From an uncultured Opitutaceae bacterium (GTDB lineage Bacteria > Verrucomicrobiota > Verrucomicrobiia > Opitutales > Opitutaceae): a stretch of 34,332 nt of DNA. This document shows positions 2,645-21,766 of this stretch, in pieces. Within the stretch, counting starts at the first letter, position 1; each line of letters begins with the position of its first letter. The position numbers were made by a program, and so were the translations under genes. The stretch is from positions 1-34,332 of the forward strand of contig CAIOZY010000029.1 of the NCBI GenBank assembly GCA_903862935.1, in the 5' to 3' direction. The notes under the pieces were generated by a model, which worked only from the letters and a program-made list of their open reading frames with translations, was not told where the DNA came from and ran no database searches.

Positions 2645-2977
2645 TCAACGGAGGCGGGTCAATCGGGCTGAGGCCTTGCGCGTGGGAATGGCTGGCGCCG
2701 CAGGTTTGACGATCCGGAGCGCATGGCCCAGCACGAGGGCGCGGGCGACCTTCACGCGGGCCCGGCGGACGATCCGATCGAAGGTCTGGCGCGAAACCCC
2801 CATGCGGGCAGAAGCAGCCGTGTGAAACAAGTCCTCGACGTCGGCGAGACGGAGGGCCTCCAGCTCGTCCGCGGCGAGGACGACCTCTTCCAATTCGTAG
2901 AGCGGGATGCCCGCTGGCTTGAAGTAGTCGCAGGGTGGGTTGTGAGCGATGCGGCGGGGGCAGATGGGACGGGGCAT
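2645..2977 (-). CDS. DUF134-family predicted DNA-binding protein
   Basis: This is a small cytoplasmic protein of the DUF134 (COG1342) family, thought to be a transcription regulator. The N-terminus MPRPxxPRRI and the block LxELExVVLxxDELEALRLADxEDL (about residues 26-50) are typical. The following segment from about residue 52 to 80 (AASARMGVSRQTFDRIVRRARVKVA) reads as a sigma-factor-like helix-turn-helix. The family is often found near NifX/NafY-like proteins, as here, where such a gene starts divergently about 140 bases away. An inverted repeat in the shared intergenic region is a candidate site for it. Its target genes are unknown; cydAB downstream may be one. Confidence 0.88.
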   Translation of the reverse strand: MPRPICPRRIAHNPPCDYFKPAGIPLYELEEVVLAADELEALRLADVEDLFHTAASARMGVSRQTFDRIVRRARVKVARALVLGHALRIVKPAAPAIPTRKASARLTRLR

Positions 2978-3008
2978 AAGACAAAAAACTGAAAGCTTGC
3001 CGAGTCAG

Positions 3009-3014
3009 TATAAT
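3009..3014 (+). promoter_or_regulatory. candidate -10 box for the NifX-like gene
   Basis: A perfect TATAAT lies about 100 bases before the NifX-like start, in the divergent region with the DUF134 gene. No good -35 hexamer is found 16-18 bases upstream. An inverted repeat begins at its fourth base, which fits an operator overlapping the promoter. Confidence 0.4.
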
Positions 3015-3028
3015 GAGCATAAGCTCAT
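3013..3028. promoter_or_regulatory. inverted repeat, candidate operator between DUF134 and NifX-like genes
   Basis: ATGAGC and GCTCAT form perfect six-base arms around ATAA. The repeat overlaps the TATAAT box at 3009-3014 and sits between two divergent genes, one encoding a DNA-binding protein. Placement and symmetry suggest that DUF134 or another dimeric regulator binds here; this is inference. Confidence 0.45.
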
Positions 3029-3116
3029 AACACGCGATGACAACTACGAAGTTTCGAATCGGGGCGCTGCGTCCCATGCAGCCCTGCCTGTTTCGGGGAT
3101 GACACCGCGCCCACGC

Positions 3117-3530
3117 ATGAAACTCGCCCTGCCCCTTACTGCAACTGATGAATTCTCGACGCACTACGGAGCGGCGAGCAAGTTTGCCGTAATGGAGGTA
3201 AACTTGGGTAAACGAACCGTGGAACGCCGGCTGGTGGTTGTTCCGCAAGATTCCGAACCATGCCAGTGGCCGCAGTTGCTGCGTGCGGCGGGCGTTGACT
3301 TAGTTCTGGCGGGCGGCATGGGGCGTGGAGCCCGGCAGCACATGGCCGAGCATGGCCTGCAAGTGCTCACCGGCGTCGCGGCCGACACTCCAGAGGCGTT
3401 GGTCGCCGCCTGGTTGAAGGGGACTCTCGTGGCGGGAGAAAATCAGTGTGATGGCAGCCACGGGCAGGCGCATTCCCATGACCGAGGCGAAGCGCTCGAT
3501 CATGGATCCGGTTGCGGCTGCTCCCACTGA
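3117..3530 (+). CDS. NifX/NafY-like iron-molybdenum-cluster-binding domain protein
   Basis: This is a 137-residue protein of the dinitrogenase iron-molybdenum cofactor biosynthesis superfamily (NifX, NafY, NifB C-terminus, MTH1175-like), small proteins that hold or carry Fe-S or FeMo-type clusters. The family pattern is clear: MKLALPL at the start, FSTHYGAASKFAVMEV near residues 13-28, and LLRAAGVDLVLAGGMGRGARQHMAEHGLQVLTGV around residues 58-92. The tail after residue 110 is rich in His and Cys (HGQAHSHD, GCGCSH) and probably binds metal. The ATG at 3117 was chosen because family members begin MKxA; an in-frame ATG also exists at 3099. No nitrogenase genes are nearby, so a nitrogenase role should not be assumed. 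Confidence 0.85.
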   Translation: MKLALPLTATDEFSTHYGAASKFAVMEVNLGKRTVERRLVVVPQDSEPCQWPQLLRAAGVDLVLAGGMGRGARQHMAEHGLQVLTGVAADTPEALVAAWLKGTLVAGENQCDGSHGQAHSHDRGEALDHGSGCGCSH

Positions 3531-8712: not shown

Positions 8713-9297
8713 CTAGGAGGATTCATCCCCGCAGCGAGGGGTGTTCCAATTCTCAAAAAGATCCAACTCTTCGGGTGTAGCCGTGTGCCTGATGAGCTGA
8801 TGTGACGCCAAACAAGTAAGCGCAAAAGCAGTCACAGCAAGACGTCCAGACTGCAGGTGCTTTTCAGCCAACCGATGGGATTGCTTGGGATAGACTGCCA
8901 CCAACGGCTCGAGATGTCCCCGCACCTCGGGCACGACCCCAACTCTCTCGCTGCACTGGGCGAGCAGGCGGCTCAACATGCTGCCTTCAAGGCGTGGGAG
9001 ATCAACCGCTAGGACTAGTAGGAGGGGCGAGGATGCGTGTGCCAGGCCGCTCTCGATTCCCGCCAAGGGACCTGAGTCTTCGAAACGATCATGCAGGACG
9101 GGGCACCCTAAGTTTCCATAGTCAACCCCCGAGCGTCCTGAGATGAACACCTCCTCAGCATTCAGCGTTCTTGCTAACGCCACTTGACGCTCGATTAGGG
9201 TAACGCCATTGACCTTGATCCAACTCTTGTCGCGTCCCATTCGCTCGGATCTTCCGCCGGCGAGAACAATTGCGCTAAATCTCAAGACACTGGGCAT
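8713..9297 (-). CDS. mobA: molybdenum cofactor guanylyltransferase MobA
   Basis: MobA transfers GMP from GTP to Mo-molybdopterin, giving the guanine dinucleotide form used by DMSO-reductase-family enzymes. The 194-residue protein has the nucleotidyltransferase signature AIVLAGGRSERMGRDKSWI near residues 9-27 and the metal-binding VLAVDLPRL near residue 100. The length is usual. The ATG at 9297 puts LAGG at the normal distance; the frame is open farther upstream but overlaps the preceding gene. It lies eight bases after the P-loop/membrane fusion gene, so the two form an operon. Its likely client is the molybdopterin oxidoreductase encoded at 12995-15190. Confidence 0.93.
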   Translation of the reverse strand: MPSVLRFSAIVLAGGRSERMGRDKSWIKVNGVTLIERQVALARTLNAEEVFISGRSGVDYGNLGCPVLHDRFEDSGPLAGIESGLAHASSPLLLVLAVDLPRLEGSMLSRLLAQCSERVGVVPEVRGHLEPLVAVYPKQSHRLAEKHLQSGRLAVTAFALTCLASHQLIRHTATPEELDLFENWNTPRCGDESS

Positions 9298-9305
9298 GGT
9301 TGACT

Positions 9306-10769
9306 TTAACGGCGACCGTTCGACCGCGCAGGTATCACCGGCAGCATAGCGCGGGAAAGGGCTACCGCTGGGCCCCACATGCCGCGGCTCTGCAGGCGGT
9401 GAGCCCATTGTCCGGGTTTAATGAAAGCGATCGCAATGAAAAGCAGGGCGACGATACCGAACGCCCGAAGTATAAGGCCGGCAATCTCCGGAGGACGCGC
9501 TCCGCTGGCTACGAGAAGTAGAAGCACGACAATCAAGGGGAGCCAGAACGCGCGGGATTTGTATTCCCGCAGAAGCCGCCTCCACCATGGCAAGGCATGG
9601 ATCAGCGTCTTTCCGTGGATATCACGAGTGAGAGCTTTGGCGAGCAGGGCGGGCGGGCGCCTGCGGTATCGGGCCCAAGTGACGATTCCAACGGAAGCCG
9701 AACCCGCGGCGGCGACATAGACTGCGACGGTTAGGGGTAGCGAGGGTATCCGCCAACCAAGCGTTCGGGTGAACCATTCCTGGACCTCTCCGTATGCGTT
9801 GAGAAGCGATTCACCGAGCAACAAGTATTGAAGAAGAACCCCCTGAAGGGCCGCCCAGGCACCCACAAGCCAGGCTCCCGCGGTAACGCCGATCGTGTTC
9901 CAGCCGAGTAGCCGTACAGAGGTGCTGAACAAAGTTCCCTGCATGGCGATCGCGGTCATCGGCCTCAGGCGATTTCCCGCAGGCGACAGGGCCTTAAGTG
10001 AGGCAGCCAGATAAGAAACCCAAATAAGCCGGGTCGGCCGCGCAAGCTTTTCTCCTGCGAAAAACAGGGTTACCGACTGAAGGGAGGCCATGACTACTCT
10101 GCGGAATGGAACCTTTGTGCCGTGAAGCAATGAGCCCAACGTAATCTCTATGCCACCGGCGGCGGCGCCATACCTTCCAATCCTTTGCCAGTCTCTGGCC
10201 GCTGCGCACAACTCGCAAAGGCGCTCGAGTGTGCGCGGTGCCCCTGCCTCGACAATCAGGTCGAAGGGCTGGCCCAAGTGCGTTGAAATCCTCTCAGAGG
10301 CCTCTTGGCGAAGCGCAACAACGACAATGGCCGGCTCAGCCCGCACAATGCTGTCCCAGTGCCGGGCGAAGCCCTCGCCGCGCGCCTCGAGTTGGCCAAA
10401 TTCGTCCAACACGATCACGTCCGGCCTTGGGGTCTGGCTTGCTAGGCCTTCCGCCCAGGCCGCGACCTGGTGCCAGGCTTGGTCCGAAAAACGGTAGGGT
10501 GGGTCGCCCTGCCCGATGCGCTCACAGAGGGGACTTTCCCGGTTGTGCAGAGGCCAGCGCAGCACATAACGCTCCGCGCCACGGCCTTGGGAAGGGCGCC
10601 CCTCCGCCTCGGCAAGAAGCCCATCCACAGCCCGTCCATCCCGGCGGAGGTAATCAAGCAGTCTTGCAAGCAGCGCGGTCTTGCCGCTGCCACGACTTCC
10701 TGTGATTCCTATAAGCAGCGGGCGTCCCAGTTCGGTAGTGCCGGGCTTCCCATCGATCGATACGGTCAT
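9306..10769 (-). CDS. P-loop NTPase (THEP1-like) fused to a multi-helix membrane domain
   Basis: This is a 487-residue two-part protein. Residues 1 to about 185 form a P-loop NTPase with Walker A GSRGSGKT (24-31) and Walker B VIVLDEFGQLE (Asp122-Glu123). The DE-G-x-x-E arrangement resembles the THEP1 nucleoside-triphosphatase family; MobB-type GTPases are the other possibility. From about residue 190 onward the sequence becomes hydrophobic, with about six predicted membrane spans and basic loops; I do not recognise this domain. Placement directly before mobA and beside a molybdoenzyme operon suggests a role in molybdenum-cofactor supply, but that is inference. The ATG at 10769 is preferred; an upstream in-frame start would add 13 residues. 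Confidence 0.7.
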   Translation of the reverse strand: MTVSIDGKPGTTELGRPLLIGITGSRGSGKTALLARLLDYLRRDGRAVDGLLAEAEGRPSQGRGAERYVLRWPLHNRESPLCERIGQGDPPYRFSDQAWHQVAAWAEGLASQTPRPDVIVLDEFGQLEARGEGFARHWDSIVRAEPAIVVVALRQEASERISTHLGQPFDLIVEAGAPRTLERLCELCAAARDWQRIGRYGAAAGGIEITLGSLLHGTKVPFRRVVMASLQSVTLFFAGEKLARPTRLIWVSYLAASLKALSPAGNRLRPMTAIAMQGTLFSTSVRLLGWNTIGVTAGAWLVGAWAALQGVLLQYLLLGESLLNAYGEVQEWFTRTLGWRIPSLPLTVAVYVAAAGSASVGIVTWARYRRRPPALLAKALTRDIHGKTLIHALPWWRRLLREYKSRAFWLPLIVVLLLLVASGARPPEIAGLILRAFGIVALLFIAIAFIKPGQWAHRLQSRGMWGPAVALSRAMLPVIPARSNGRR

Positions 10770-10976: not shown

Positions 10977-11348
10977 TTGAGCCCTGCCTGTCCGGCATTC
11001 CGACCCCATAAAGTTCGCCCTCTCCCCAACGAGGCGGTCATGCTGATTGCGCGGCAGTTTGCAGCGCTTGGAGATCCGCTTCGGATCAAGATGGTACATG
11101 CGCTTTTCGCGGGACCGATGAGCGTCAACGCGATCGCTCAGGCGACGGGGGGACTGCAGTCCAACGTATCCCGGCATCTGAACAAGCTAACCGCTGCCGG
11201 TGTTCTGGACCGCGACAAGAAAGGCTCCCAAGTTTTCTACTCCATCGCGGATCCGTCGATATACGACCTATGTGAGCAGGTTTGCGGAGCGCTCGAGAAG
11301 CGGCTTGCGAAGCAAGCTGAGGTGATCGGGGCCGCTGTGAGGAGATAG
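10977..11348 (+). CDS. ArsR-family repressor with C-x3-C in the last helix (paralogue 1)
   Basis: This is a 123-residue ArsR/SmtB-type winged-helix repressor: FAALGDPLRIKMVHAL opens the fold, NVSRHLNKLTAAGVL is the recognition-helix region and KGSQVFYSIADPS is the wing. The final helix holds a Cys pair spaced C-x3-C (DLCEQVCGAL). It closely resembles the ArsR at 20604-20981, including that pair. The start is uncertain: the paralogue alignment supports an upstream start such as the TTG at 10977, whereas the only nearby ATG (11040) would trim 21 residues. It probably controls the downstream porin and molybdoenzyme operon through a thiol switch, perhaps sensing sulfide or polysulfide. Confidence 0.85.
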   Translation: MSPACPAFRPHKVRPLPNEAVMLIARQFAALGDPLRIKMVHALFAGPMSVNAIAQATGGLQSNVSRHLNKLTAAGVLDRDKKGSQVFYSIADPSIYDLCEQVCGALEKRLAKQAEVIGAAVRR

Positions 11349-11379
11349 CGTTAGAGTGCCCAACCGGATGGAGATTGGG

Positions 11380-11403
11380 TAGATTTATCAATCAATAAAT
11401 CTA
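11380..11403. promoter_or_regulatory. 24-base inverted repeat between arsR-1 and the porin operon
   Basis: TAGATTTAT (11380-11388) and ATAAATCTA (11395-11403) are perfect nine-base arms around CAATCA. The repeat begins about 30 bases after the arsR stop and 140 bases before the porin start. It is AT-rich inside GC-rich DNA and is followed by AT-rich sequence, not by a T-run. An operator or other protein-binding site is more likely than a terminator. Confidence 0.5.
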
Positions 11404-11438
11404 ATCCTAAGGCTACGCAGTGTTACTGTTATTAATAA

Positions 11439-11456
11439 ATGATCGAATACGCATAT
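11439..11456 (+). promoter_or_regulatory. motif resembling the site in front of the second arsR gene
   Basis: ATGATCGAATACGCATAT agrees at 14 of 18 positions with the minus-strand sequence at 20991-21008, which lies just before the second ArsR gene and has the same orientation towards its downstream gene. A match of this quality can arise by chance between two regions of a few hundred bases, so a shared ArsR operator is only a suggestion. Confidence 0.3.
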
Positions 11457-11544
11457 CCTCATGTGCTATACGGCGGGTTGTCCTCCCGACAATGCCGCCC
11501 TCTGGCGCAGTCGGGAGTCTTACTAAATCAAAGACACCCCCGTC

Positions 11545-12957
11545 ATGTTGTCCCAACTGCACTATCGGCACAGCCGCACCTACCTTACCGCCGCGCTCCT
11601 GATTCTGGGCGCACCGGCCCTTCACGCCACCAACGGCATGAACATGGAAGGGTATGGGCCGATTGCTGCGGCGATGGGAGGGACATCGATGGCTTTTGAG
11701 AATGGAACGGCCGCGGTGATAAACAACCCGGCGACCTTGGGGCTGCAGGGCCAGGGCAACCGTCTGGACTTGGCCCTGGGCATTTTGGGCCCAGACATCA
11801 CCGCAACGAATCCCGGGGGCCAGTCTGCGAAATCGAAGGCGACAGCGTTTTACATGCCCGCCTTCGGTTACACTCGGCGCAGCGGCGATCTCGTATATGG
11901 ATTCGGCGTTTTCGGTCAGGGCGGCATGGGGTGCCAATACGGCCCGGACACCTGGCGCGGGCTAGGGTTTAACCTGGAAAACCGGACGGCAGTTTCCGTG
12001 GGCAGGGCCATCGTGCCGTTGTCTTGGAACGTCAACGACAAGCTCATCATCGCGGCCACGGTGGACTTCATTTGGGGCGGAATGAGCCTGCGCATGGCCA
12101 TGAGCGGCACTCAATTCTCAGACCTCGTAACTCCCACATCCCAGCATTTTGGACGGGCCACGGGCAGCATCGTACAATCCTTCGGCCAGGTCATGCAGAT
12201 GATGCCCGCCGGGACCAGTGTGGATTATGCATACTTCGACTTCTCAAACGGGAACATGGCCTTCGGGGAGGCAAAGGGCTATGGCTATGCGGGCAAGATT
12301 GGCGTTTTGTACCAGCCCTCAAAAGAGCTCGCCATCGGGCTAACACTTCACTCGAAGACCGAACTATCCGACCTCAAGGCGTCCGGCGACCATTTATCCT
12401 TCCAGCTCAATGTGCCCGGCATGGGGCACATGCCTCAAAGTCTGGTAGGTGACTTTCGCGTGCGCGACTTCGAGTGGCCCGCGATGCTCGGGGGTGGAAT
12501 CGCCTGGCGTCCGACGACGCGGTGGCTGCTCGCAGCCGACGTTCGGGAGATCTTCTGGCAGGGCGTTATGCAGGAATTCCACATGACGTTCCAGGCGGCC
12601 AATTCGGCCAGCAACGGCTCGTTCAGCGGCCAGAACCTGGACGCAATGCTCTACCAATACTGGAAGAACGAAACCGTGGTGATGCTTGGGGCAGCCTACC
12701 AAGCCAGCGACCGGTTGACACTGCGCTTAGGCTGCAATCTGGGCAGCAATCCGGTTCCGGACCAATACCTGAACTGCCTCTTCCCAGCCATCGTCAAAGA
12801 TCACCTCACGGCAGGATTCGGGTGGAGGTTCACGGATCGATCGAGCGTCGATGTTGCGGTAAGCCGGGGTTTCGGGATCACCCGCACGAGCGGCTACGGC
12901 ATCACGATTGACCACAGCCAGCTGAATTGGCAGGCAATGTATTCCCTGCGCTTCTGA
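11545..12957 (+). CDS. FadL/OmpP1/TodX-family outer-membrane channel
   Basis: This is a 470-residue outer-membrane beta-barrel of the FadL family, which lets hydrophobic molecules cross the outer membrane by lateral diffusion. A signal peptide covers about residues 1-28, ending near ALHA. The mature N-terminus has the family pattern GPIAAAMGGTSMAFENGTAAVINNPATL. The rest alternates as in beta-strands and closes with an aromatic-rich last strand ending in Phe (MYSLRF), as expected for BAM insertion. No ribosome-binding site is obvious. It starts a rightward cluster, 37 bases ahead of the molybdoenzyme gene. The context hints at uptake of a hydrophobic or sulfur-containing substrate. Confidence 0.9.
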   Translation: MLSQLHYRHSRTYLTAALLILGAPALHATNGMNMEGYGPIAAAMGGTSMAFENGTAAVINNPATLGLQGQGNRLDLALGILGPDITATNPGGQSAKSKATAFYMPAFGYTRRSGDLVYGFGVFGQGGMGCQYGPDTWRGLGFNLENRTAVSVGRAIVPLSWNVNDKLIIAATVDFIWGGMSLRMAMSGTQFSDLVTPTSQHFGRATGSIVQSFGQVMQMMPAGTSVDYAYFDFSNGNMAFGEAKGYGYAGKIGVLYQPSKELAIGLTLHSKTELSDLKASGDHLSFQLNVPGMGHMPQSLVGDFRVRDFEWPAMLGGGIAWRPTTRWLLAADVREIFWQGVMQEFHMTFQAANSASNGSFSGQNLDAMLYQYWKNETVVMLGAAYQASDRLTLRLGCNLGSNPVPDQYLNCLFPAIVKDHLTAGFGWRFTDRSSVDVAVSRGFGITRTSGYGITIDHSQLNWQAMYSLRF

Positions 12958-12994
12958 GGACGTTGGACTGCAGATACTTCGGAGGACTTAGATC

Positions 12995-15190
12995 ATGAGG
13001 TCATTTTCCCGCCGGCAGTTCCTTAAGATCACCGCTGGCACCCTCGCGGCCGCAGGCTTGGCCAGTCGGTCCAGGGGTGTCCTTTGGGGCGGCGGCGGAC
13101 CAGAAAAACCCCGGCAGGGAACCCAGATCATTCCCACCTTCTGCGACCTGTGCTTCTGGAAATGCGGGGCACTGGCCTATGTGAGAGACGGGAAACTGTG
13201 GAAGATCGAAGGCAACCCGCGCGACCCTCTGAGCCGGGGACGGCTTTGCCCGCGCGGCACGGGTGGAGTTGGCGCACACACGGATCCAGACCGGTTGCGC
13301 GCACCTCTAGTCCGAGTGAATCGACGCGGCAGGGATGAGTGGAAAGAGGTGAGCTGGGACGAGGCCCTCGACTATATTGCTCTCCGAATGCGACGGATCG
13401 CAGCAGAGGACGGACCCGAGGCGATGGCCCTTTTTGCCCACGGCCTCGGCGGGGGGTTCTTCCGGCACGCTTTTAAGGCATTCGGGACACCAAACATCGC
13501 TGAGCCGGCCTACGCCCAGTGCCGGGGTCCCCGCGACGCTGGCTACAACCTCACATTTGGCGATGAGGTGGGCTCGCCCGAACGTACCGACATAGCCAAC
13601 GCCGAGTGCCTTGTCCTCATCGGTTCTCACCTTGGCGAGAACATGCACAATACGCAGGTGCAGGAGTTCGCCGAAGCGGTCGGTCGGGGCGTCAGCCTGA
13701 TCGTGGTCGATCCGCGTTTCTCGATCGCGGCCAGCAAGGCAAGATACTATCTCCCCATCAAGCCTGGCACTGACGTGGCGCTCTTGCTCGCTTGGATGCA
13801 CGTAATCGTAAAGGAGGGCCTGTACGACCGCGAGTATGTAACAAAATTTGGGCATGGTTTCGATCAGTTTGTCGCCTCGCTGGAGGGCTATACCCCGGAG
13901 TGGGCATACCCCGAGACGGGCATTGAACCGGGAATGATTCGTGAGACAGCCCGCGAGATGGCCCACCACCGGCCTGCCACGCTCGTGCACCCCGGCCGGC
14001 ACGTTACCTGGTACGGGAACGATGCGCAGCGAAGTCGGGCGAATGCGCTGCTTAACGCACTGCTTGGCAGCTGGGGCCGGCGGGGTGGACTGTATGTGCC
14101 GGCGGGCGTTGACGTGCCGCACTATCCCAGCCCCGCCTATCCGAAGCCCGCCCGTCCTCCTGCGGACAACCCGGATGGAAAGTATCCGTTTGCGAGCGAA
14201 CCCCTCACAACCGGGATCCGCGATGCCACCCTTGAGGGCAAACCGTACCCTATTAAGGGCTGGTTCGTGTATGCAACGAACCTGTTGTATTCGCTGCCCG
14301 ATCAGGCCGCTACGATCCGCGCACTCGAGAAACTGGATCTGGTTGTGGTTGTGGACGTAATTCCGAGTGAAATTGCAGGGTGGGCGGACGTGGTTCTACC
14401 CGAAAATGTCTATCTGGAGCGCTACGATGAAATCGGAGCGAGTCCCTTCCGGGAGCCGTTCCTGACTCTTAGGCAGCCTGTTGTGGATGCGCCCAACGAC
14501 CAGAAGCCGGGTTGGTGGATTGCTCACAAGTTGGCTGAGAAGCTCGGTGTGGGGGCCTATTTCCCATGGCGGGACATTGAGGAATACCTCGATTACCGTC
14601 TCAGGGCTGCCGGTCACAGCTTGGAGGAGCTGAAGCGCGATGGCGTCGTGCGCGGGTCGCCCAAGCCCATCTATTTTGAGGATGGAGCGCCGTCGGAGTT
14701 CGACACGCCATCGGGAAAGATCGAGTTTTTCTCCGAGCAACTCCAGCGGGCGGGCCTGGATCCGGTGCCGCGGTATGCCCCGCCCGAAGCTGGGCCGCCC
14801 GGGGCCTTCCGGGTGCTTTTCGGTCGCGCACCCGTGCACTCGTTCAGTCGCACGGAAAACAATCCCATCCTTGCGGACCTCATGGATGAGAATGAGGTCT
14901 GGGTTAACGCAGCTGCGGCAAGGCGGCTCGGCCTAAAGAGCGGCGACTACGTGAGACTCAGAAACCAGGATGGGGTTGCAAGTGAGCGAATCAGGGTTAA
15001 GGCCACGGAGCGCATCCGCCCGGACTGTGTCTACCTTGTTCACGGTTTCGGACACACCTCGCACCGCCTGCGCCGGACCTTTGGCCGAGGGGCCAGCGAT
15101 GCGCAGATTCTGTCCCGGTACCGGACCGACCCGCTGATGGGCGGAACTGGCTCGAACGTAAACTTTGTCACCCTTGAATTGGAGGCCTGA
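12995..15190 (+). CDS. molybdopterin oxidoreductase catalytic subunit, polysulfide/thiosulfate reductase-like
   Basis: This is a 731-residue DMSO-reductase-superfamily enzyme binding bis-MGD and one 4Fe-4S cluster. A Tat signal is present (SRRQFLK at residues 5-11), so it acts in the periplasm. Cys50, Cys53, Cys57 and Cys85 form the C-x2-C-x3-C-x27-C cluster site. Cys176 in YAQCRGPRD is at the position of the molybdenum ligand, the state found in PsrA/PhsA-type enzymes. The C-terminal part (LMDENEVWVNAAAARRLGLKSGDYV) is the cofactor-binding beta domain. GGAGG lies nine bases before the ATG. With the two following genes it makes a membrane-bound respiratory complex of the PsrABC type. Sulfur-compound turnover is inferred; the direction and exact substrate cannot be read from the sequence. 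Confidence 0.9.
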   Translation: MRSFSRRQFLKITAGTLAAAGLASRSRGVLWGGGGPEKPRQGTQIIPTFCDLCFWKCGALAYVRDGKLWKIEGNPRDPLSRGRLCPRGTGGVGAHTDPDRLRAPLVRVNRRGRDEWKEVSWDEALDYIALRMRRIAAEDGPEAMALFAHGLGGGFFRHAFKAFGTPNIAEPAYAQCRGPRDAGYNLTFGDEVGSPERTDIANAECLVLIGSHLGENMHNTQVQEFAEAVGRGVSLIVVDPRFSIAASKARYYLPIKPGTDVALLLAWMHVIVKEGLYDREYVTKFGHGFDQFVASLEGYTPEWAYPETGIEPGMIRETAREMAHHRPATLVHPGRHVTWYGNDAQRSRANALLNALLGSWGRRGGLYVPAGVDVPHYPSPAYPKPARPPADNPDGKYPFASEPLTTGIRDATLEGKPYPIKGWFVYATNLLYSLPDQAATIRALEKLDLVVVVDVIPSEIAGWADVVLPENVYLERYDEIGASPFREPFLTLRQPVVDAPNDQKPGWWIAHKLAEKLGVGAYFPWRDIEEYLDYRLRAAGHSLEELKRDGVVRGSPKPIYFEDGAPSEFDTPSGKIEFFSEQLQRAGLDPVPRYAPPEAGPPGAFRVLFGRAPVHSFSRTENNPILADLMDENEVWVNAAAARRLGLKSGDYVRLRNQDGVASERIRVKATERIRPDCVYLVHGFGHTSHRLRRTFGRGASDAQILSRYRTDPLMGGTGSNVNFVTLELEA

Positions 15191-15192
15191 CG

Positions 15193-15732
15193 ATGTCGCT
15201 CTACGCTATGGTTATTGACACGCGACGCTGTGTGGGCTGCCAGGACTGCGTCGCTGCGTGCAAGATGGAGAACGGAGTCCCCACCGGGTACACGCGCGAC
15301 TGGATCACGGAAACTGTGCAGGGCGAGTTTCCGTCCCCGTGGATGGAGATCCGCTCTGAGCGCTGCAATCACTGTGATAATCCGCCGTGCGTGGCGTGCT
15401 GTCCAACCGGGGCGAGCCATACGCACGAGCCCGGAAACATTGTCCTGGTCAACCGGGAGAAGTGCATTGGGTGCAAGGCGTGCCTAGCGGCCTGCCCGTA
15501 CAATGCCCGCTTCATCCACCCCGACGGCTATGCGGACAAGTGCACCTTCTGCGTCCATCGAGTTGAGCGGGGACTCGATCCCGCCTGCGTGGCGGTCTGT
15601 CCCACGCGTTGTATGCATTTTGGCGACTTGGATGATCCCCTGAGTGAGGTCAGCCACCTTCTGGCCTCACGCCCCGCCCATGCGCTGACGCAGGCGGCCG
15701 GGACCGCTCCGCGCATCTACTACTTGAGCTGA
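15193..15732 (+). CDS. four-cluster ferredoxin-type electron-transfer subunit (PsrB/PhsB-like)
   Basis: This is a 179-residue iron-sulfur subunit that passes electrons between the molybdenum subunit and the membrane subunit. Four cysteine groups are complete: CVGCQDCVAAC near residue 15; CNHCDNPPC followed by VACCP near residue 57; CIGCKACLAACP near residue 90; and CTFC with DPACVAVCP near residue 118. They account for four 4Fe-4S clusters. There is no signal peptide, as expected for a subunit co-exported with its Tat partner. The ATG follows the previous stop by two bases with GGAGG at 15181-15185, so it is translationally linked. Confidence 0.95.
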   Translation: MSLYAMVIDTRRCVGCQDCVAACKMENGVPTGYTRDWITETVQGEFPSPWMEIRSERCNHCDNPPCVACCPTGASHTHEPGNIVLVNREKCIGCKACLAACPYNARFIHPDGYADKCTFCVHRVERGLDPACVAVCPTRCMHFGDLDDPLSEVSHLLASRPAHALTQAAGTAPRIYYLS

Positions 15733-15738
15733 ACAGCC

Positions 15739-16782
15739 ATGATCGAATTTACGACCACCCGTCACAACCCGATGATCGATCCGGCGCTCCATCTGTGGGG
15801 CTGGGAGGTGGCGGTCTATCTGTTTTTAGGGGGCTTGGTTGCCGGACTGATGATCATTGCTGGAGTACGCCTTCTGGTGATGCGGCCGAAGGAGCGACAG
15901 GCGCTGGTTTGCTGCACCATAGGGCCTCTCCTGGGCCTAGTCCTTCTCAGCCTGGGCATGGGCGCCTTGTTCTTGGATCTCGAGAACAAGCGGCATGTCT
16001 GGCGCCTATATCTGACCTTCCAGGCCACCTCGCCGATGTCCTGGGGCTCTTGGATCCTACTGCTGGTGTATCCGGCGTTGCTCGCCAACGCGCTGACCCA
16101 TCTCCCCGAGGCCATTCCGGCTCTCACCAAGCGAATCCCCCTCTTGGTTACCTGGAGTGACTTCATCCTGGCGCGAACCCGTCTGGTTGTGGCTATCGGC
16201 TTCTCCAATCTGGCTGTCGGCGCCGGACTAGGCATCTACACAGGAGTCCTGCTCGGGACGCTTTCGGCTCATCCCCTGTGGAACAGCAGCCTGCTCGGGC
16301 CGTTGTTTTTATTCTCGGGTCTTTCGGCCGCCGCGGCCCTGCTGCATGGAATCCTTGTGCTGACGCTCCCTGACGAGGAGCTTCCGAACTTTGCGGACTT
16401 TTTGCTTTCGACGCTCTCGCGATGGTCGGAGTCCAAGCCGCTCGATGCCCGAATTGCCCCAACCCTGGCGCAGGCGGACAACAGCTTCTTGACGATCGAG
16501 CTGATGCTGCTGGGCCTCTTTCTTATTGGGCATCTGACCTCCACCGAGGCGGCTCAACAGGGTGCCTATCTGCTGCTCGGGGGCCCCTATACGGCGGCAT
16601 TCTGGGTGTTTGTGGTGGGTATGGGAATAGCGACTCCCGTGTTGCTCCAGTTCCTCGAACTGCGGCACAGGATCCGGCACACGCTGGTGCCGGCGGTTCT
16701 GGTACTTCTCGGAAGTCTGTCCCTCCGGTTCGTGATGGTTTATGCCGGTCAAGCCAGCCACTGGCCGATCGTCCTACGATGA
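15739..16782 (+). CDS. NrfD/PsrC-type membrane anchor subunit
   Basis: This is a 347-residue integral membrane protein of the NrfD/PsrC family, the quinone-interacting anchor of the complex. It has about eight to nine predicted membrane spans. The N-terminus HLWGWEVAVYLFLGGLVAGLMIIAG (about residues 19-43) is characteristic, with a quinone-site-like LDLENKRHVWRLYLTFQATSPMSWGSW stretch near residues 75-101. No haem-binding motif is present. It begins six bases after the iron-sulfur gene, completing the three-subunit unit. It would exchange electrons with the quinone pool; whether substrate is reduced or oxidised is not determined. Confidence 0.92.
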   Translation: MIEFTTTRHNPMIDPALHLWGWEVAVYLFLGGLVAGLMIIAGVRLLVMRPKERQALVCCTIGPLLGLVLLSLGMGALFLDLENKRHVWRLYLTFQATSPMSWGSWILLLVYPALLANALTHLPEAIPALTKRIPLLVTWSDFILARTRLVVAIGFSNLAVGAGLGIYTGVLLGTLSAHPLWNSSLLGPLFLFSGLSAAAALLHGILVLTLPDEELPNFADFLLSTLSRWSESKPLDARIAPTLAQADNSFLTIELMLLGLFLIGHLTSTEAAQQGAYLLLGGPYTAAFWVFVVGMGIATPVLLQFLELRHRIRHTLVPAVLVLLGSLSLRFVMVYAGQASHWPIVLR

Positions 16783-16821
16783 ATGCCTTTCGCCTGATTA
16801 ATCCTGAAGACCTGAAATGCC

Positions 16822-17361
16822 ATGACTGATCCGTCCCACTCCCCGGGTGCTCCCCAACCCCACATGAATCCTTACTGGGCTGGATTTGGCCTAGGCCTCG
16901 TGCTCCTGGCGGCCTTTGTTGTCATGGGCCGCGGCCTCGGGGCCTCGGGCGCGTTTGGCTCCGTGACAGCGACCGTGTTGGGAAAGGTCGCGCCGGCCCA
17001 TGCAGCGCATAACGCATTCTTCGCCCGCTATCTTGGGGACGGCTCGGCAAGCCCGCTTAAGGACTGGCTGGTGTTTGAGGTCCTTGGGGTCTTTGTTGGG
17101 GGCCTGATATCAGGCGCTCTTGCGAACCGGCTGCACGTGACCGTGGAGAAAGGTCCCAGAATCAGTGCAGCGGGGCGCCTGGTGCTGGCCTTCGTTGGGG
17201 GTGCGCTGATGATGATCGGCGCCAATTTTGCCCTGGGGTGTACAAGCGGGCAGGCCTTGACCGGAGGAGCCCTGCTTAACGTCGGAAGCTGGGCGTTTAT
17301 GATGTGCGTCTTCGGAGGCGCCTATGCCTTTGCCTGGTTCATGAGGAGGGAATGGCTATGA
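16822..17361 (+). CDS. YeeE/YedE-family sulfur transport protein, first half
   Basis: This is a 179-residue membrane protein with about four to five predicted spans, of the sulfur-transport (YeeE/YedE, DUF395) family; characterised members import thiosulfate. The signature ANFALGCTSGQALTGGALL near residues 133-151 includes the conserved Cys. The length matches a half-size unit, and the next gene supplies the other half. Its stop overlaps the next start in ATGA (17358-17361), so the two are translationally coupled and probably work as a pair. It lies 39 bases after the NrfD-like gene, in the same transcription direction. Confidence 0.9.
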   Translation: MTDPSHSPGAPQPHMNPYWAGFGLGLVLLAAFVVMGRGLGASGAFGSVTATVLGKVAPAHAAHNAFFARYLGDGSASPLKDWLVFEVLGVFVGGLISGALANRLHVTVEKGPRISAAGRLVLAFVGGALMMIGANFALGCTSGQALTGGALLNVGSWAFMMCVFGGAYAFAWFMRREWL

Positions 17362-18623
17362 TGGCTCCCTTTTACAAATTTGGCCTGTTCGGTGAACCCG
17401 CCAGCCTTATCGTCGCCTTCGTCACGGGGATCGGCTTCGGCTTCTTCCTGGAGCGCGCAGGTTTCGGCAACGCTCGTATCTTGGCTGCGCAGTTCTACTT
17501 CCGCAACCTGCGGGTCTTGAAGGTCATGTTCACCGCCATTGTTACCGCGATGGTGGGACTTTACTTCCTGTCGCGGATCGGCTTTGTCGATCTTTCACTT
17601 GTCTACTTGGTCCCGACCTTTCTTGTTCCCCAGGTGGTGGGCGGGATCATCCTGGGAGTGGGCTTTGTCATTGGCGGCTACTGTCCAGGCACGTCGTGCG
17701 TGGCTGCCGCCACAGGCCGGGTTGATGGCATGGTCTACCTGTTGGGTATGTTCGCGGGACTTTTTGGCTTCGCCGAAGCCTACCCGCACCTAGAAGGGTT
17801 TGCTCATTCGACCGCGATGGGGCAGATCACGCTTCCGAGACTGTTCGACATTCCCTATGGACTCGTCGTATTCGCGGTGGTGGTCATGGCTCTCGGCGCC
17901 TTTGTGGCGGCTGAGTGGGCGGAAACGAAGTTCGGTGACGGCTCGGCAGCGGGGGGAGACTCGCTCTTGGGGGGGCCCTGGAAGCTCACCCCGGTTCGCC
18001 GGTTTGCCTTGGTCCTAGGCGTTCTCGGGCTAGTGGCTGCCGTTGCAGGGAATCCCTACCGAGGCAGTCGAGTGACCATGGACACGCGTGAGCTCGCCAT
18101 AGAGGCTGGAAGGGGAGCGGACCAAGTATCCTCCGATCAGCTGGCCGACTGGATCGTTCAAGGAACTGCGGATTTTCGCCTAGTGGACCTGCGAGGCGAG
18201 CCTAAGTTCGCCCAATACCACATCCCATCTGCCCAGAATGTGCCCCTCGCCTCGCTATCGCCCGATTTCGCGGCCCGAAACGAGAAGATCATCCTATATT
18301 CCGGAGACGGAGTCCAAGCCGCCCAGGCATGGTTCATCCTCAAGGCGAGCGGCTTCTCCTCGGTCTACCTCCTTCGGGGAGGGATGGAGGAATGGAGACG
18401 CAGCATTCTTTTTCCTTCCGAGCCGAAGGGCGCCACGCCTGCCGAATCGATCGAGTTCGCCAGGCGTTGTGCGGTCAGCAAGTTTTTCGGCGGGACACCC
18501 CAAGCCGGTGCTGGAACGCGGGCGCCAGAGCAGCCAAAGCTGGCTGCACCGGTCTTGCCCACAGCCCCGCCGCCTCAGCCGTCGGCTGCGCCAAAGCCGA
18601 AGCCAAAGCGGGAAGGCTGCTAA
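17358..18623 (+). CDS. YeeE/YedE second half fused to a Ser-substituted rhodanese domain
   Basis: This is a 421-residue protein. Residues 1 to about 200 form a YeeE-type membrane unit with the Cys-bearing signature GYCPGTSCVAAATGRVDG. After another membrane span, about residues 255-350 form a rhodanese-like domain (FRLVDLRGEPKFAQYHIPSAQNVPL, then YLLRGGMEEWRR). The active-site loop, which should read as Cys followed by a turn, is ILYSGDGVQ, with Ser315 in the Cys position. The domain is therefore unlikely to be a sulfurtransferase by the usual mechanism. A Pro/Ala/Lys-rich tail ends in Arg-Glu-Gly-Cys. The ATG at 17358 was chosen for the ATGA overlap and a GAGGAGGG seven bases upstream. Confidence 0.88.
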   Translation: MMAPFYKFGLFGEPASLIVAFVTGIGFGFFLERAGFGNARILAAQFYFRNLRVLKVMFTAIVTAMVGLYFLSRIGFVDLSLVYLVPTFLVPQVVGGIILGVGFVIGGYCPGTSCVAAATGRVDGMVYLLGMFAGLFGFAEAYPHLEGFAHSTAMGQITLPRLFDIPYGLVVFAVVVMALGAFVAAEWAETKFGDGSAAGGDSLLGGPWKLTPVRRFALVLGVLGLVAAVAGNPYRGSRVTMDTRELAIEAGRGADQVSSDQLADWIVQGTADFRLVDLRGEPKFAQYHIPSAQNVPLASLSPDFAARNEKIILYSGDGVQAAQAWFILKASGFSSVYLLRGGMEEWRRSILFPSEPKGATPAESIEFARRCAVSKFFGGTPQAGAGTRAPEQPKLAAPVLPTAPPPQPSAAPKPKPKREGC

Positions 18624-18656
18624 TCCGCGCGAGCGGGATCGCAACGGCCTCGGGTC

Positions 18657-20567
18657 TCAATCCGCCCAGGAGGGCAGAATGCACCGCCTGCTCAGCGCAG
18701 ATCGGTAATCCTGGAAGTTTGCAAACGTTGAGGCGACTGCTGGCTCGGTCTCGCGGTGGCACTGCAGGCATGCCCCGACCAGAAGGATCCGGCGCTGCTC
18801 CTGGAGACTAAACGCCCGCACGGTGGTGCGGGTCGCAGAGCCGGAGATCGGCTCACGCAGGAACGCGATCCAGGCGTCGAGAGGCAATCCGTCGCGGTTA
18901 CTCAGCCCGAAGGAAGGGATGAAGGTCCATTCGGCATGGTCTCCCTGGACTAGGTAATCGAGTCGGCCGCGCCCGTACCCGAGGGCAGTCGGGTTGCAGT
19001 GGCACGAGCGGCAGTCGCGAGGCCTCGCGGCGGTCGTGTGGGGCGAGATCGGTGCGTACAGGCGGTGAAACGTGTCCTCAGAACCAGGTGTCTTCAGGGA
19101 TAGGACCATGCCGGGGACCACAGTTGCGACCCGTTCCTGCGGGGTTCCGTCCGGACCCGCGATCGTCTCGACACCGAGGGCCGGGGGTTCGGTTAGGAAG
19201 TTTCCAGCCTGCTCCTGCCAGGCACCTGAAACCGACTTTCCGGACAAGTGATCCCAACCAGCCGCTGTGGCGTCAAATGAGGTGTGGCAGCTGACGCATT
19301 GCGGAGCCCAGGCACTGTGGCAGGCCCGGCATTCCAGCTTCTGATGGGCTGCTATGTCCCGCCCACAAGCCGACGATGGACTCTTGGGCCTGAGTTCTTC
19401 GCCCGTGGACTTGCTCTTGAGCACGACCCGGCCTGTGCCGTCCAAGAACACGTTAGGATACGAGGCCGCCCTTCCTAAAAGGCCTGCCAAGAACCGCCGC
19501 CCAGGCTGATCGAGCTTGCGCAGGGCTATAATCTTGCGGGTTTCGGGGTCGATTTCTACGGAGGCGGCCGAGGGAGGGGGGGCGGTAGCGTGGCAGTCGG
19601 CGCAGGAGATCCGCACAGCATCTTCCTCATGAGCGTGCCGCTGTCCGTCTCCCATGATCTCGGCGGCGACATGGCAATCGATGCATTGCATGCCTCTCTC
19701 GAAGTGCACGTCAGGCGCAATGCGCTCGAGGACGCGGCCATCGGACAATATTCGGTACCTGCCCCGCCATCCGGAGGAGTGCTTCGCCACGCCCTCATCG
19801 AGCAAGGTCTCGTGCCAACCCTCGTAAGAGATTGAAATCCGACCGGATCGGCTGTGACAACCGAAGCAAGCCTGCTCGGAAACCTGGATTGAGATGTCCG
19901 GGTGATGGCGCCATGACCCCGCGGTAAGTCCGGGTTCTCTTCGTTGCTTCAATTCAACCAAGGCTGCGCCGTGATAGTCCAGATGGCAGGCTGAACACCC
20001 TCCGCCGCGACTTGTCGCATCAACTGGGGCTGGATCAGACTTCTCCTGGCCCAGGTGGCAGGAAGCGCAAAGGCTCCGTAGATGTGTGTCTGCCGGCGAC
20101 ATCCCGAGGCGTTCGACATCAAATCCGTGGTTCGGATCGGGGCTTTCGCCAAAGACGAACTTATCCACCGCGATCACACCGCTCATGGTGTTCATCAGAG
20201 ACGCACGGATCCGCGGCTCAATGTCGGCGTGGCATTTGCCGCAGGTGCTATGCACAATTGAAAGATTTCCCGGAGTAAGGGTCATCCCTTTATGGGCGAG
20301 ATTCTTGTCTGTAGCGGCCGGATCCCCGAGGTGGCAGGATGCGCAACCGATGAGCCTCGGGTCGTGGGCCTGCGGGAATCCCCCCATGTTTTCGTGGCAT
20401 GTTAGGCACCCCTCCAGTTGCTGCCCCGCCCGCGGCGACGCTCTATGGAAGCGCGCGAGCGCCCCACCGATTGCCAGGCAAAAGACAAATAGGACCGCAA
20501 GGCCCAAGAGCCCCAGCCCAGGCGCCTTTGTCCAGATCGCGAAAAGCCATTTTCCAGGCCGGATCAC
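18657..20567 (-). CDS. membrane-anchored 12-haem c-type cytochrome
   Basis: This is a 636-residue multihaem cytochrome c. I count twelve CxxCH motifs: CLTCH, CASCH, CGKCH, CASCH, CSACH, CFGCH, CIDCH, CADCH, CRACH, CVSCH, CRSCH and CLQCH, from residue 54 to near the C-terminus. A hydrophobic segment at about residues 16-38 is an anchor or uncleaved signal, placing the haems in the periplasm. No special haem motif such as the C-x15-CH of MccA was seen. It may carry electrons to or from the molybdoenzyme, or act as a reductase itself; no named family was recognised. It starts at GTG 20567 without a clear ribosome-binding site, 36 bases after the second ArsR gene, and converges on the YeeE-rhodanese gene. 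Confidence 0.9.
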   Translation of the reverse strand: MIRPGKWLFAIWTKAPGLGLLGLAVLFVFCLAIGGALARFHRASPRAGQQLEGCLTCHENMGGFPQAHDPRLIGCASCHLGDPAATDKNLAHKGMTLTPGNLSIVHSTCGKCHADIEPRIRASLMNTMSGVIAVDKFVFGESPDPNHGFDVERLGMSPADTHLRSLCASCHLGQEKSDPAPVDATSRGGGCSACHLDYHGAALVELKQRREPGLTAGSWRHHPDISIQVSEQACFGCHSRSGRISISYEGWHETLLDEGVAKHSSGWRGRYRILSDGRVLERIAPDVHFERGMQCIDCHVAAEIMGDGQRHAHEEDAVRISCADCHATAPPPSAASVEIDPETRKIIALRKLDQPGRRFLAGLLGRAASYPNVFLDGTGRVVLKSKSTGEELRPKSPSSACGRDIAAHQKLECRACHSAWAPQCVSCHTSFDATAAGWDHLSGKSVSGAWQEQAGNFLTEPPALGVETIAGPDGTPQERVATVVPGMVLSLKTPGSEDTFHRLYAPISPHTTAARPRDCRSCHCNPTALGYGRGRLDYLVQGDHAEWTFIPSFGLSNRDGLPLDAWIAFLREPISGSATRTTVRAFSLQEQRRILLVGACLQCHRETEPAVASTFANFQDYRSALSRRCILPSWAD

Positions 20568-20603
20568 GACTGGGCAGAACGGACCATGAGGAGAATTGGA
20601 GAT

Positions 20604-20981
20604 CTAGTTTCCATTCTGAGTAAAAGCCTTGGCCTGCTGAGCAAGCTGGCGCTCCAAACTGTCGCACATGAGATCGCAAAGTCTACCGAGTGCCGGATCG
20701 GCGATGGAGTAGTAGACCTGCAAACCCCTTTTCCTGCGCGCGAGGATGCCGGCCTCTGCCAGGACCTGCAGATGCCGAGAGATGTTGGGCTGGAAACTGC
20801 CAGAGCCGCCAGCGAGGTCTCCGGCACTCTTTTCAGCTTCGAACAGCTGTGTCACAAGCCTGAGCCGGGTGGGGTCAGCCAAAGCCGAAAAGCGGCGGCC
20901 CATTAAGCCTATCGCCTCGTCGGTCAGGAGTCGGGCGCGCCCGGACGACGCCCGGGGAACCGATGGACGCGACCTTGACAT
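20604..20981 (-). CDS. ArsR-family repressor with C-x3-C in the last helix (paralogue 2)
   Basis: This is a 125-residue ArsR-type winged-helix repressor. FSALADPTRLRLVTQLFEAE, NISRHLQVLAEAGILARR and GLQVYYSIADPALGRL mark the fold. The last helix has the C-x3-C pair (RLCDLMCDSL), exactly where the ArsR at 10977-11348 has its pair. The two proteins align along their whole length, including the N-terminal extension. It leads an apparent operon with the 12-haem cytochrome. A perfect palindrome lies 18-29 bases before the ATG, consistent with autorepression. A thiol-based sulfur signal is inferred, by analogy with sulfide-sensing ArsR proteins that use cysteine pairs. Confidence 0.92.
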   Translation of the reverse strand: MSRSRPSVPRASSGRARLLTDEAIGLMGRRFSALADPTRLRLVTQLFEAEKSAGDLAGGSGSFQPNISRHLQVLAEAGILARRKRGLQVYYSIADPALGRLCDLMCDSLERQLAQQAKAFTQNGN

Positions 20982-20990
20982 TAGGATCAG

Positions 20991-21017
20991 TTATGCATAT
21001 ATGATCATATTCGTCAA
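20991..21017 (-). promoter_or_regulatory. candidate promoter/operator of the second arsR-cytochrome unit
   Basis: ATATGATCATAT at 20999-21010 is a perfect 12-base palindrome. On the minus strand it is preceded by a -35-like TTGACG (21017-21012) and followed at 20991-21008 by the motif shared with 11439-11456. The palindrome sits between the -35 box and the ATG at 20981, where a bound repressor would block transcription. No strong -10 box was found. An autoregulatory ArsR site is the simplest reading. Confidence 0.5.
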
Positions 21018-21120: not shown

Positions 21121-21282
21121 TCACCCGACCCTGCTGATTAACAAAGAACACCAAAGGCATCTTTCTTGATGAGTCACGATATCACCGATTTCGATACTGA
21201 GGTCATTGCCGGAGCCATCTTGCCCCAGTCCTCGTGGATTTCTGGGCGCCCACCCCCTTTGTTGCGGTGTGGCACATCTCAT
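21121..21282 (-). CDS. possible small protein with a strong ribosome-binding site
   Basis: A 53-codon frame starts at ATG 21282, eight bases after a perfect AAGGAGG on the minus strand (21297-21291). The peptide has three cysteines, two of them in ERCLWCSLL near its C-terminus, and matches no family I recognise. It lies between the divergent ArsR and MOSC genes, so the good ribosome-binding site may be coincidence. It would be transcribed towards the arsR gene. Confidence 0.25.
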   Translation of the reverse strand: MRCATPQQRGWAPRNPRGLGQDGSGNDLSIEIGDIVTHQERCLWCSLLISRVG

Positions 21283-21301
21283 TCGGTTTTCCTCCTTCTT
21301 C

Positions 21302-21766
21302 ATGAACATCGTCGGCCTCTACATTTCTCCGGGGCACAATTTTTTTGGTCATCACGGGGGACCCGCTGGCACGCAGCCTGCGATTGAACTGCCTGCGATC
21401 GAGTGCGTCGCTGGGCGTGGCGTACGAAGCGATCGTTTCTTCGACTACGCGCCTGACTACAAGGGCCAGATCACCTTCTTTTCAATAGAAGTCCTTGAAC
21501 GCCTCCGCGACGAGCTAGCGCTGCCCGAGGCGCGCCCTGAGGCAGCGCGCCGCAATGTCTTGGTGCGCGGTGTGGAGCTCAACACCCTTGTCGGCGTTGA
21601 ATTTGAAGTCCAGGGCGTGCGGTTCCTGGGTACTGAGGAATGCCGCCCGTGCTACTGGATGGACGGGGCTCTCGGCCCCGGCGCCGACTCGTGGCTGAGG
21701 GGCCGCGGAGGGCTGCGGGCGCGAATCCTCACAGATGGTGTCTTGCGGTTGGATCCTCCGCGGTAA
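21302..21766 (+). CDS. MOSC-domain protein
   Basis: This is a 154-residue stand-alone MOSC domain, the fold shared by the C-terminus of molybdenum-cofactor sulfurases and by YiiM-type proteins. The block RRNVLVRGVELNTLVGVEFEVQG (about residues 79-101) and the following FLGTEECRPC, with its conserved Cys, are the family core. QITFFSIEVLERLRDEL precedes it as in other short MOSC proteins. The ATG at 21302 was chosen because it gives the usual N-terminus (MNIVGLYISPGH). It may handle sulfur on the molybdenum cofactor and so belongs functionally with mobA and the molybdoenzyme. It is divergent from the arsR-cytochrome pair. Confidence 0.85.
   Translation: MNIVGLYISPGHNFFGHHGGPAGTQPAIELPAIECVAGRGVRSDRFFDYAPDYKGQITFFSIEVLERLRDELALPEARPEAARRNVLVRGVELNTLVGVEFEVQGVRFLGTEECRPCYWMDGALGPGADSWLRGRGGLRARILTDGVLRLDPPR

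Follow-up and report, generated by a model that had tools for sequence, protein, structure and literature searches.

A cluster of a MerR gene, psrABC, two DUF395 genes and a rhodanese gene was reported in 2019 in Candidatus Thermonerobacter; in the text of that report available to us, its psrABC genes are described as most similar to MROS_1774–1776 of Melioribacter roseus and IALB_1661–1663 of Ignavibacterium album (PMC6338057). The same core genes occur at positions 10977–20981 of the stretch of DNA analysed here (the window; 34,332 nucleotides of contig CAIOZY010000029.1, assembly GCA_903862935.1), which comes from an uncultured Opitutaceae bacterium. Two ArsR genes bracket this locus; between them lie, in order, genes for a porin of the TodX/FadL type, a molybdoenzyme of the PsrABC type, a YeeE pair that is split and carries a rhodanese domain, and a cytochrome with 12 haems. 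The core module is already known, and the statement in the initial annotation that no described system has exactly this gene set was therefore partly wrong. The 2019 report, in its available part, names the rhodanese a sulfurtransferase and mentions neither a lost cysteine nor a cysteine tail. Among openly licensed full texts, PSRLC2 was found in PMC6338057 only; psrA is not mentioned in the available part of PMC9751042.

Other described systems resemble individual parts of the locus. The polysulfide reductase of Thermus thermophilus (PDB 2vpw, deposited as thiosulfate reductase) shares a Cys-ligated molybdenum (Mo) subunit, 45% identical to that of the window, together with FeS and NrfD subunits of the Psr type. 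The window clade differs from it by residues of its own, such as Arg177 and His332, and by the yeeE pair and the pseudo-rhodanese. The YeeE/TsuA transporter of Spirochaeta thermophila (6leo, 8k1r) belongs to the same Sulf_transp family and its Cys293 aligns with a GC-motif cysteine of the window protein, but the window version is split in two and linked to a pseudo-rhodanese that appears to be periplasmic, and no YeeD was seen with it. The Geobacter cluster extHIJKLMNOPQS likewise groups a 12-haem ExtM-like cytochrome with a porin and a rhodanese-like protein; as described in the available text, it has no molybdoenzyme and a different type of porin (PMC5877670), and the window proteins score far under the cut-offs of the Ext models.

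On balance, we favour reading the locus as a Psr-type sulfur oxidoreductase of the periplasm, linked to quinone and equipped with sulfur-delivery parts of its own, because of a second genomic context of the porin, the YeeE pair and the cysteine tail of the pseudo-rhodanese. All nine genes were confirmed, including the PsrABC-type complex, the split YeeE pair and the 12-haem cytochrome named in the initial annotation:

10977–11348, forward strand: ArsR1, an ArsR/SmtB-type repressor with LCEQVCGALE close to its C terminus
11545–12957, forward strand: TodX/TbuX-like outer-membrane channel of the FadL superfamily, from Pfam and solved-structure matches
12995–15190, forward strand: PsrA-like molybdopterin catalytic subunit with a 4Fe-4S motif and Cys176 at the Mo-ligand position
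15193–15732, forward strand: PsrB-like 4Fe-4S subunit
15739–16782, forward strand: PsrC-like NrfD membrane anchor
16822–17361, forward strand: YeeE1 half transporter, whose GCTSGQ cysteine aligns with Cys293 of S. thermophila YeeE
17352–18623, forward strand: YeeE2, the other half transporter, with its cysteine in YCPGTS, fused to a membrane-anchored pseudo-rhodanese whose Pro/Lys-rich tail ends in EGC
18135–18401, forward strand: pseudo-rhodanese domain, part of the YeeE2 protein
18657–20567, reverse strand: 12-haem ExtM-like c-type cytochrome with an N-terminal hydrophobic segment
20604–20981, reverse strand: ArsR2, on the same strand as the cytochrome gene and upstream of it

The reading frames of YeeE1 and YeeE2 overlap by 10 bases, and a 36-base gap separates arsR2 from the co-directional cytochrome gene.

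Recurrence of the core module and its catalytic subunit

An alignment of four PsrA sequences served as the query in a survey of 84,980 species, each represented by one genome, which yielded 346 relatives. The best 80 of the 346 by psrA similarity are mostly in metagenome-assembled genomes (MAGs) and, according to the titles, come from 11 phyla. We examined 83 loci, comprising these 80, two further loci and the window, so that the set is not a random draw; L007 and L011 lie on the same contig (length 228210), and L011 alone was counted. Families of neighbouring genes were obtained by clustering open reading frames, weighted by cross-support. The core of psrABC, yeeE1, yeeE2 and rhodanese is complete in 54 of the 56 loci that extend 4.7 kb or more beyond psrA on its downstream side, and the association of these genes is therefore not due to chance. 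Co-occurrence elsewhere had been set beforehand as one of two tests on which the initial annotation could fail, and the core was found to recur widely across the 11 phyla. Within the window's class, psrA is rare, occurring in 4 of 286 genomes (E 1e-60); a draw from the phylum recovered the identical four among 387 genomes. Viral contigs scanned with PsrA contained no relative.

The Mo subunit of the window resembles Thermus PsrA (797 bits) far more closely than any other solved structure (next best, 249 bits), and is only 32% identical to the plasmid-borne PhsA of Escherichia coli. Relatives outside Verrucomicrobiota have PsrA proteins 61–71% identical to that of the window. The subunit carries the cluster motif FCDLCFWKC...C, and its Cys176 aligns with the Mo-ligand cysteine of Thermus PsrA. 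Together with the 4Fe-4S subunit and the NrfD anchor, these features place the complex among complex iron–sulfur molybdoenzymes of the Psr type. An RRxFLK-type start is present at the N terminus, where the Pfam TAT_signal model scores 21.5 bits, just below its cut-off of 22.7. Among 271 near-invariant positions of the clade, 210 match Thermus PsrA, 138 match PhsA and 43 match neither. His145 and Arg332 of Thermus PsrA, proposed as catalytic residues, have their aligned counterparts in His149 and Arg335 of the window protein. A PsrA tree of 68 of the 81 usable clade sequences, from which L019 was left out as a near copy of L018, does not decide between PsrA, SreA, SrrA and similar groups, since it includes only two outside references. 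On the second test, whether the catalytic subunit falls in a clade of known non-sulfur function, no clade member with a proven substrate was found, and the expression data seen for the clade point to arsenate.

For M. roseus, the comparison was made with a MAG of that name (L077) and not with MROS_1774 itself. Its PsrA is 63% identical to that of the window, and its gene order is MerR-psrABC-yeeE1-yeeE2-rhodanese. It differs from the window in having MerR in place of ArsR and a rhodanese encoded as a separate gene, and no close TodX porin was found in it.

Near the module, 11 loci (L016, L023, L027, L030, L039, L041, L058, L073, L076, L077 and L081) have a small protein of the carboxymuconolactone-decarboxylase (AhpD-like) type, accompanied in 7 of them by an unknown protein of ~353 residues.

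A rhodanese fold ending in cysteine

The domain fused to YeeE2 has a rhodanese fold (Pfam, 61.4 bits against a cut-off of 22.2), and Foldseek agrees. The catalytic cysteine is missing in 61 of 63 readable copies, the window protein having Ser in its place. Across 64 aligned domains, this position holds Ser in 47, Ala in 10, Gly in 3, Thr in 1, Cys in 2 (L068 and L077) and a gap in 1.

A cysteine is instead found at the very end of the protein. The C-terminal residue is Cys in 60 of 61 complete proteins, a count that leaves out three cut by a contig end (L034, L063 and L078); 59 end in EGC and one in QGC, and the lone exception (L021) stops within the domain. In 45 of the 61, the terminal Cys is the sole cysteine of the ~180-residue domain. 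It is preceded by a Pro/Ala-rich stretch and then a Lys/Arg-rich tail. In the AlphaFold model of the YeeE2–rhodanese protein, which is confident in the rhodanese domain only, residues 387–423 have a predicted local distance difference test (pLDDT) score below 50. As a control, we took 30 rhodanese loci from 41 genomes of the family, each represented by the protein best matching the pseudo-rhodanese hidden Markov model, which may differ from the rhodanese that retrieved the locus. Five of these proteins end in Cys and 25 do not; all five belong to the pseudo-rhodanese family, and one is the window protein itself.

In the two stand-alone forms scored (L020 and L073), lysines precede a single hydrophobic segment, followed by the rhodanese domain, and other starts look alike. 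By the positive-inside rule alone, the domain is therefore predicted to be periplasmic. The YeeE halves have Sulf_transp domains with GC-motif cysteines, conserved in all 66 readable YeeE1 and all 65 readable YeeE2 proteins. Each half corresponds to half of the NCBIfam TsuA model, scoring 42.4 and 22.6 bits against a cut-off of 400. No TusA/YeeD-type protein was present among the window proteins scanned.

SoxY, with its GGCGG tail, and DsrC, with its C-terminal cysteine arm, carry sulfur on a cysteine of a flexible C terminus. Their folds are different, whereas the window protein has a rhodanese fold mostly without its own catalytic cysteine. We tentatively suggest, as a possibility somewhat short of an even chance, that the pseudo-rhodanese is a new periplasmic sulfur carrier, in which a rhodanese fold would hold sulfur on the terminal Cys of a flexible Lys-rich arm and shuttle it between the Mo site of a PsrA-type enzyme and the pore of a split YeeE; in Opitutaceae, a TodX-type outer-membrane channel for zero-valent sulfur would feed this carrier. 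The nearly invariant terminal Cys offers a single residue to mutate. No description of a dead rhodanese with a terminal cysteine was found in openly licensed papers.

Similar ends occur in other YeeE contexts. One locus (L082) has a second YeeE pair, ending in GGC, and in another (L122) a multi-rhodanese protein ending in AGC adjoins a YeeE pair that lacks psrA. The latter protein (L122:6600–8729) starts with MSKQPCTSMNRRRFLRN and contains a metallo-beta-lactamase domain and three rhodanese stretches. In view of these two ends, the cysteine tail may be a wider habit beyond the pseudo-rhodanese family.

Porin and cytochrome partners

The porin matches Pfam Toluene_X (PF03349) with 84.2 bits (cut-off 29.7). 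Its nearest solved structures are TbuX (174 bits) and TodX (170 bits), with FadL at about 22 bits; its initial assignment as a FadL porin thus holds for the superfamily and not for the FadL type proper. Two PF03349 genes are present in the 3.35 Mb of the window's genome, and close copies of the porin are confined to Opitutae and one unclassified MAG.

Porin orthologues of at least 60% identity occur in 8 of the 286 genomes of the class, in two contexts. In four genomes psrA is present, the porin lies at psrABC and there is no match to sulfide:quinone oxidoreductase (SQR; E 1e-20). The other four have no psrA; here, the porin adjoins an SQR-type flavoprotein gene, followed by DsrC and DsrE2. 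Both contexts meet in a Cephaloticoccus MAG (L015), where one strand carries porin, SQR, DUF1641, DsrC, DsrE2, an ArsR–rhodanese fusion with a YCRG loop, and psrA. Pfam confirmed DsrC and DsrE2 in both L015 and L119, as well as DUF1641 in the former, and the nearest solved structure to the SQR-like protein of L015 is the mitochondrial sulfide:quinone oxidoreductase. The occurrence of one porin family at psrABC and beside SQR-DsrC-DsrE2 supports a sulfur role for the locus and bears on outer-membrane sulfur passage. To our knowledge, it is an open question by what route sulfur in insoluble or hydrophobic form passes the outer membrane and reaches periplasmic enzymes. Neither this porin in two sulfur contexts nor FadL together with elemental sulfur and SQR was found in openly licensed papers.

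The porin-SQR-DsrC-DsrE2 cluster of Opitutaceae without psrA (L118, L119, L120 and L121, with DUF1641 in L120 and L121) looks like sulfide oxidation with its own outer-membrane channel. ArsR–rhodanese-like regulators 52–56% identical to that of L015 also occur in L021, L048, L062 and L065, lying immediately upstream of psrA in L048 and L065, both without the yeeE pair. Each of these four loci also has two unknown secreted-looking genes with no Pfam match.

The window cytochrome has exactly 12 CxxCH motifs, and most of its complete relatives have 11 CxxCH and one CxxxxCH. The match of the window protein to ExtM extends over almost its whole length (E 1.3e-80) and scores 271.4 bits against an NCBIfam cut-off of 800. 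No solved structure matched it by sequence, and its AlphaFold model was too poor for use (mean pLDDT 48.8). An ExtM-like cytochrome lies close to psrA in 19 of the 83 loci and is thus an optional partner; a close porin and a nearby cytochrome are combined in six (the window, L008, L017, L018, L019 and L021). In L030, the cytochrome is nearby but the porin is divergent. An ExtP-like cytochrome b is fused to the cytochrome in L052 and L073 (46 and 64 bits, cut-off 290), and L066 has a weak cytochrome-b match. A Rieske protein precedes the cytochrome in L052 and L028, and Rieske-like genes of the same cluster occur in 8 loci. Across the genomes of the class, ExtM-like genes were found in 3 of 286, all among the four with psrA, and in one of these (G085) the gene lies ~770 kb from psrA. 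This distribution favours a functional link between cytochrome and psrA that does not require adjacency.

Substrate and regulation

In the mechanism we propose, zero-valent sulfur or polysulfide would enter or leave through the TodX-like outer-membrane channel. In the periplasm, the membrane-anchored pseudo-rhodanese would bind the sulfur through its terminal Cys, forming a persulfide. Its tail would then swing this persulfide to PsrA, at whose Mo site electrons from quinol, arriving via PsrC and PsrB, would reduce the sulfur to sulfide. Alternatively, the tail may deliver to the pore of the YeeE1/YeeE2 pair, and the two GC-motif cysteines there could pass the sulfur on inwards. A second electron route might run through the 12-haem cytochrome. 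The ArsR repressors, through their paired cysteine, may sense sulfane sulfur and control a porin–psr unit and an arsR2–cytochrome unit. The envelope-spanning sulfur traffic put forward in the initial annotation, with coupling to the quinone pool, remains the best reading and gains independent support from the association of close porin orthologues with psrABC or SQR-DsrC-DsrE2.

The two flanking repressors are paralogues, as first annotated (ArsR1 and ArsR2 are 42% identical), and LCxxxCxxL near the C terminus is kept in 8 of 10 aligned ArsR proteins, including both window copies. Two candidate operators were marked in the window, from a pattern derived from the same sequences:

11439–11455: candidate operator ATGATCGAATACGCATA, upstream of the porin gene
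20983–21008: candidate operator between arsR2 and the MOSC gene

Allowing up to four mismatches, the imperfect inverted repeat TATGMGCANNTGCKCATA is found upstream of the porin, at a distance of up to 250 bases, in 14 of 17 chosen porin loci, SQR-type loci included, compared with about 1% of 1944 random stretches, a contrast that overstates the case because the pattern was drawn by eye from the tested sequences. A related pattern derived from the two window sites, ATGATCNNATAYGCATA, has 3 matches in the window, all at these sites, against 0.01 expected. Among 11 further promoter regions, five have a site (up to four mismatches; two share one site) and six do not, the latter including those of the window's arsR1, where the best candidate has 7 mismatches, and of the L015 arsR.

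The shortfall upstream of arsR1 and the by-eye origin of the operator pattern are among several observations that weigh against the sulfur oxidoreductase we favour. Two loci (L048 and L065) have psrABC without yeeE1, yeeE2 or rhodanese in the sequence examined. A loop cysteine is present in 8 of the 63 rhodaneses, at the catalytic position in two and one residue earlier in six (L012, L039, L040, L050, L052 and L060). Porin and SQR are not strict partners, since a FadL-like gene lies near psrA in only 21 of the 83 loci and just 4 of the 32 class genomes with SQR (of 286) have the porin. Fifteen of the 21 FadL-like genes lie within 300 bases upstream of psrA on the same strand, and in two of these 15 (the MAG loci L032 and L034) the porins are only 21–25% identical to that of the window. 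The cytochrome is related to one from a selenite/tellurite operon. Arg177, next to the Mo-ligand Cys, is near-invariant and specific to the clade; Thermus PsrA has Thr at this position and PhsA has Pro, and a different anion may therefore be the substrate. According to the available part of PMC13047784, the substrate of Phs/Psr enzymes is not deducible from sequence.

The chief argument against a sulfur substrate is the arsenate data. M. roseus appears to have the window-type enzyme, judging from L077 and the available text of PMC6338057. In the accessible parts of the respective reports, its growth was not stimulated by S0, thiosulfate or sulfite (PMC3534657), and MROS_1774 was strongly induced on arsenate and proposed as a respiratory arsenate reductase (PMC5492636), the sole expression data found for the clade. 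The complex could accordingly be a non-Arr respiratory reductase of arsenate or thioarsenate, with YeeE and the pseudo-rhodanese handling the sulfur or arsenic–sulfur species formed, and the ArsR regulators on both sides of the window cluster and Arg177 beside the Mo ligand fit this view. We nevertheless consider it rather unlikely, as the M. roseus evidence consists of transcript levels for two catalytic-subunit genes and includes neither an activity nor a mutant, the ArrA model gives the Mo subunit 159.6 bits against a cut-off of 1600, and the porin's other partners are SQR, DsrC and DsrE2.

Thiosulfate is an unlikely substrate. PsrABC would then reduce thiosulfate imported by YeeE1/YeeE2 as in TsuA, consistent with the membership of YeeE in the thiosulfate uptake family (TsuA model matches; PMC13047784, available part), the retention of both GC-motif cysteines and PhsA being the best NCBIfam match of the Mo subunit (501.7 bits). 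However, PhsA falls short of its cut-off of 694, as the Fdh and Dms models do of theirs, identity to the E. coli plasmid PhsA is low, and PhsC from that plasmid is annotated as a cytochrome B subunit, unlike the NrfD anchor here. The TsuA scores are also far from the cut-off, the scan for TusA/YeeD-type proteins was negative, and thiosulfate should not need a hydrophobic outer-membrane channel. Reduction of selenite or tellurite to the element, with the porin, 12-haem cytochrome and rhodanese-fold protein corresponding in role to Geobacter ExtI, ExtM and ExtH, appears quite improbable to us. The nearly full-length ExtM match with 12 haem motifs, the ExtP-like fusions and the Rieske genes argue for it, and a Geobacter extI mutant showed diminished selenite and tellurite reduction (PMC5877670, available text). 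Yet all Ext scores are well below cut-off, most of the loci have no cytochrome nearby, and ExtI is described in the same text as weakly similar to phosphate-selective porins, not TodX. MAGs from many phyla carry the module. Its enzyme lends itself to annotation as a reductase of thiosulfate, polysulfide or arsenate, and proof of the substrate would decide how these genomes are to be annotated.

Further genes near the cluster include the following:

21206–21766, forward strand: MOSC-domain protein, with relatives in 9 of the 83 loci, some distant from psrA
8713–9408, reverse strand: MobA-like nucleotidyltransferase; mobA-like genes occur in 19 of the 83 loci

Close to the cluster there are also genes for cytochrome bd and for a NifX-like protein (window 150–2560 and 2949–3530). 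The same neighbours are found in L018 and L019, which are near copies of each other, with cydA 88%, cydB 91% and the NifX-like gene 65% identical to those of the window.

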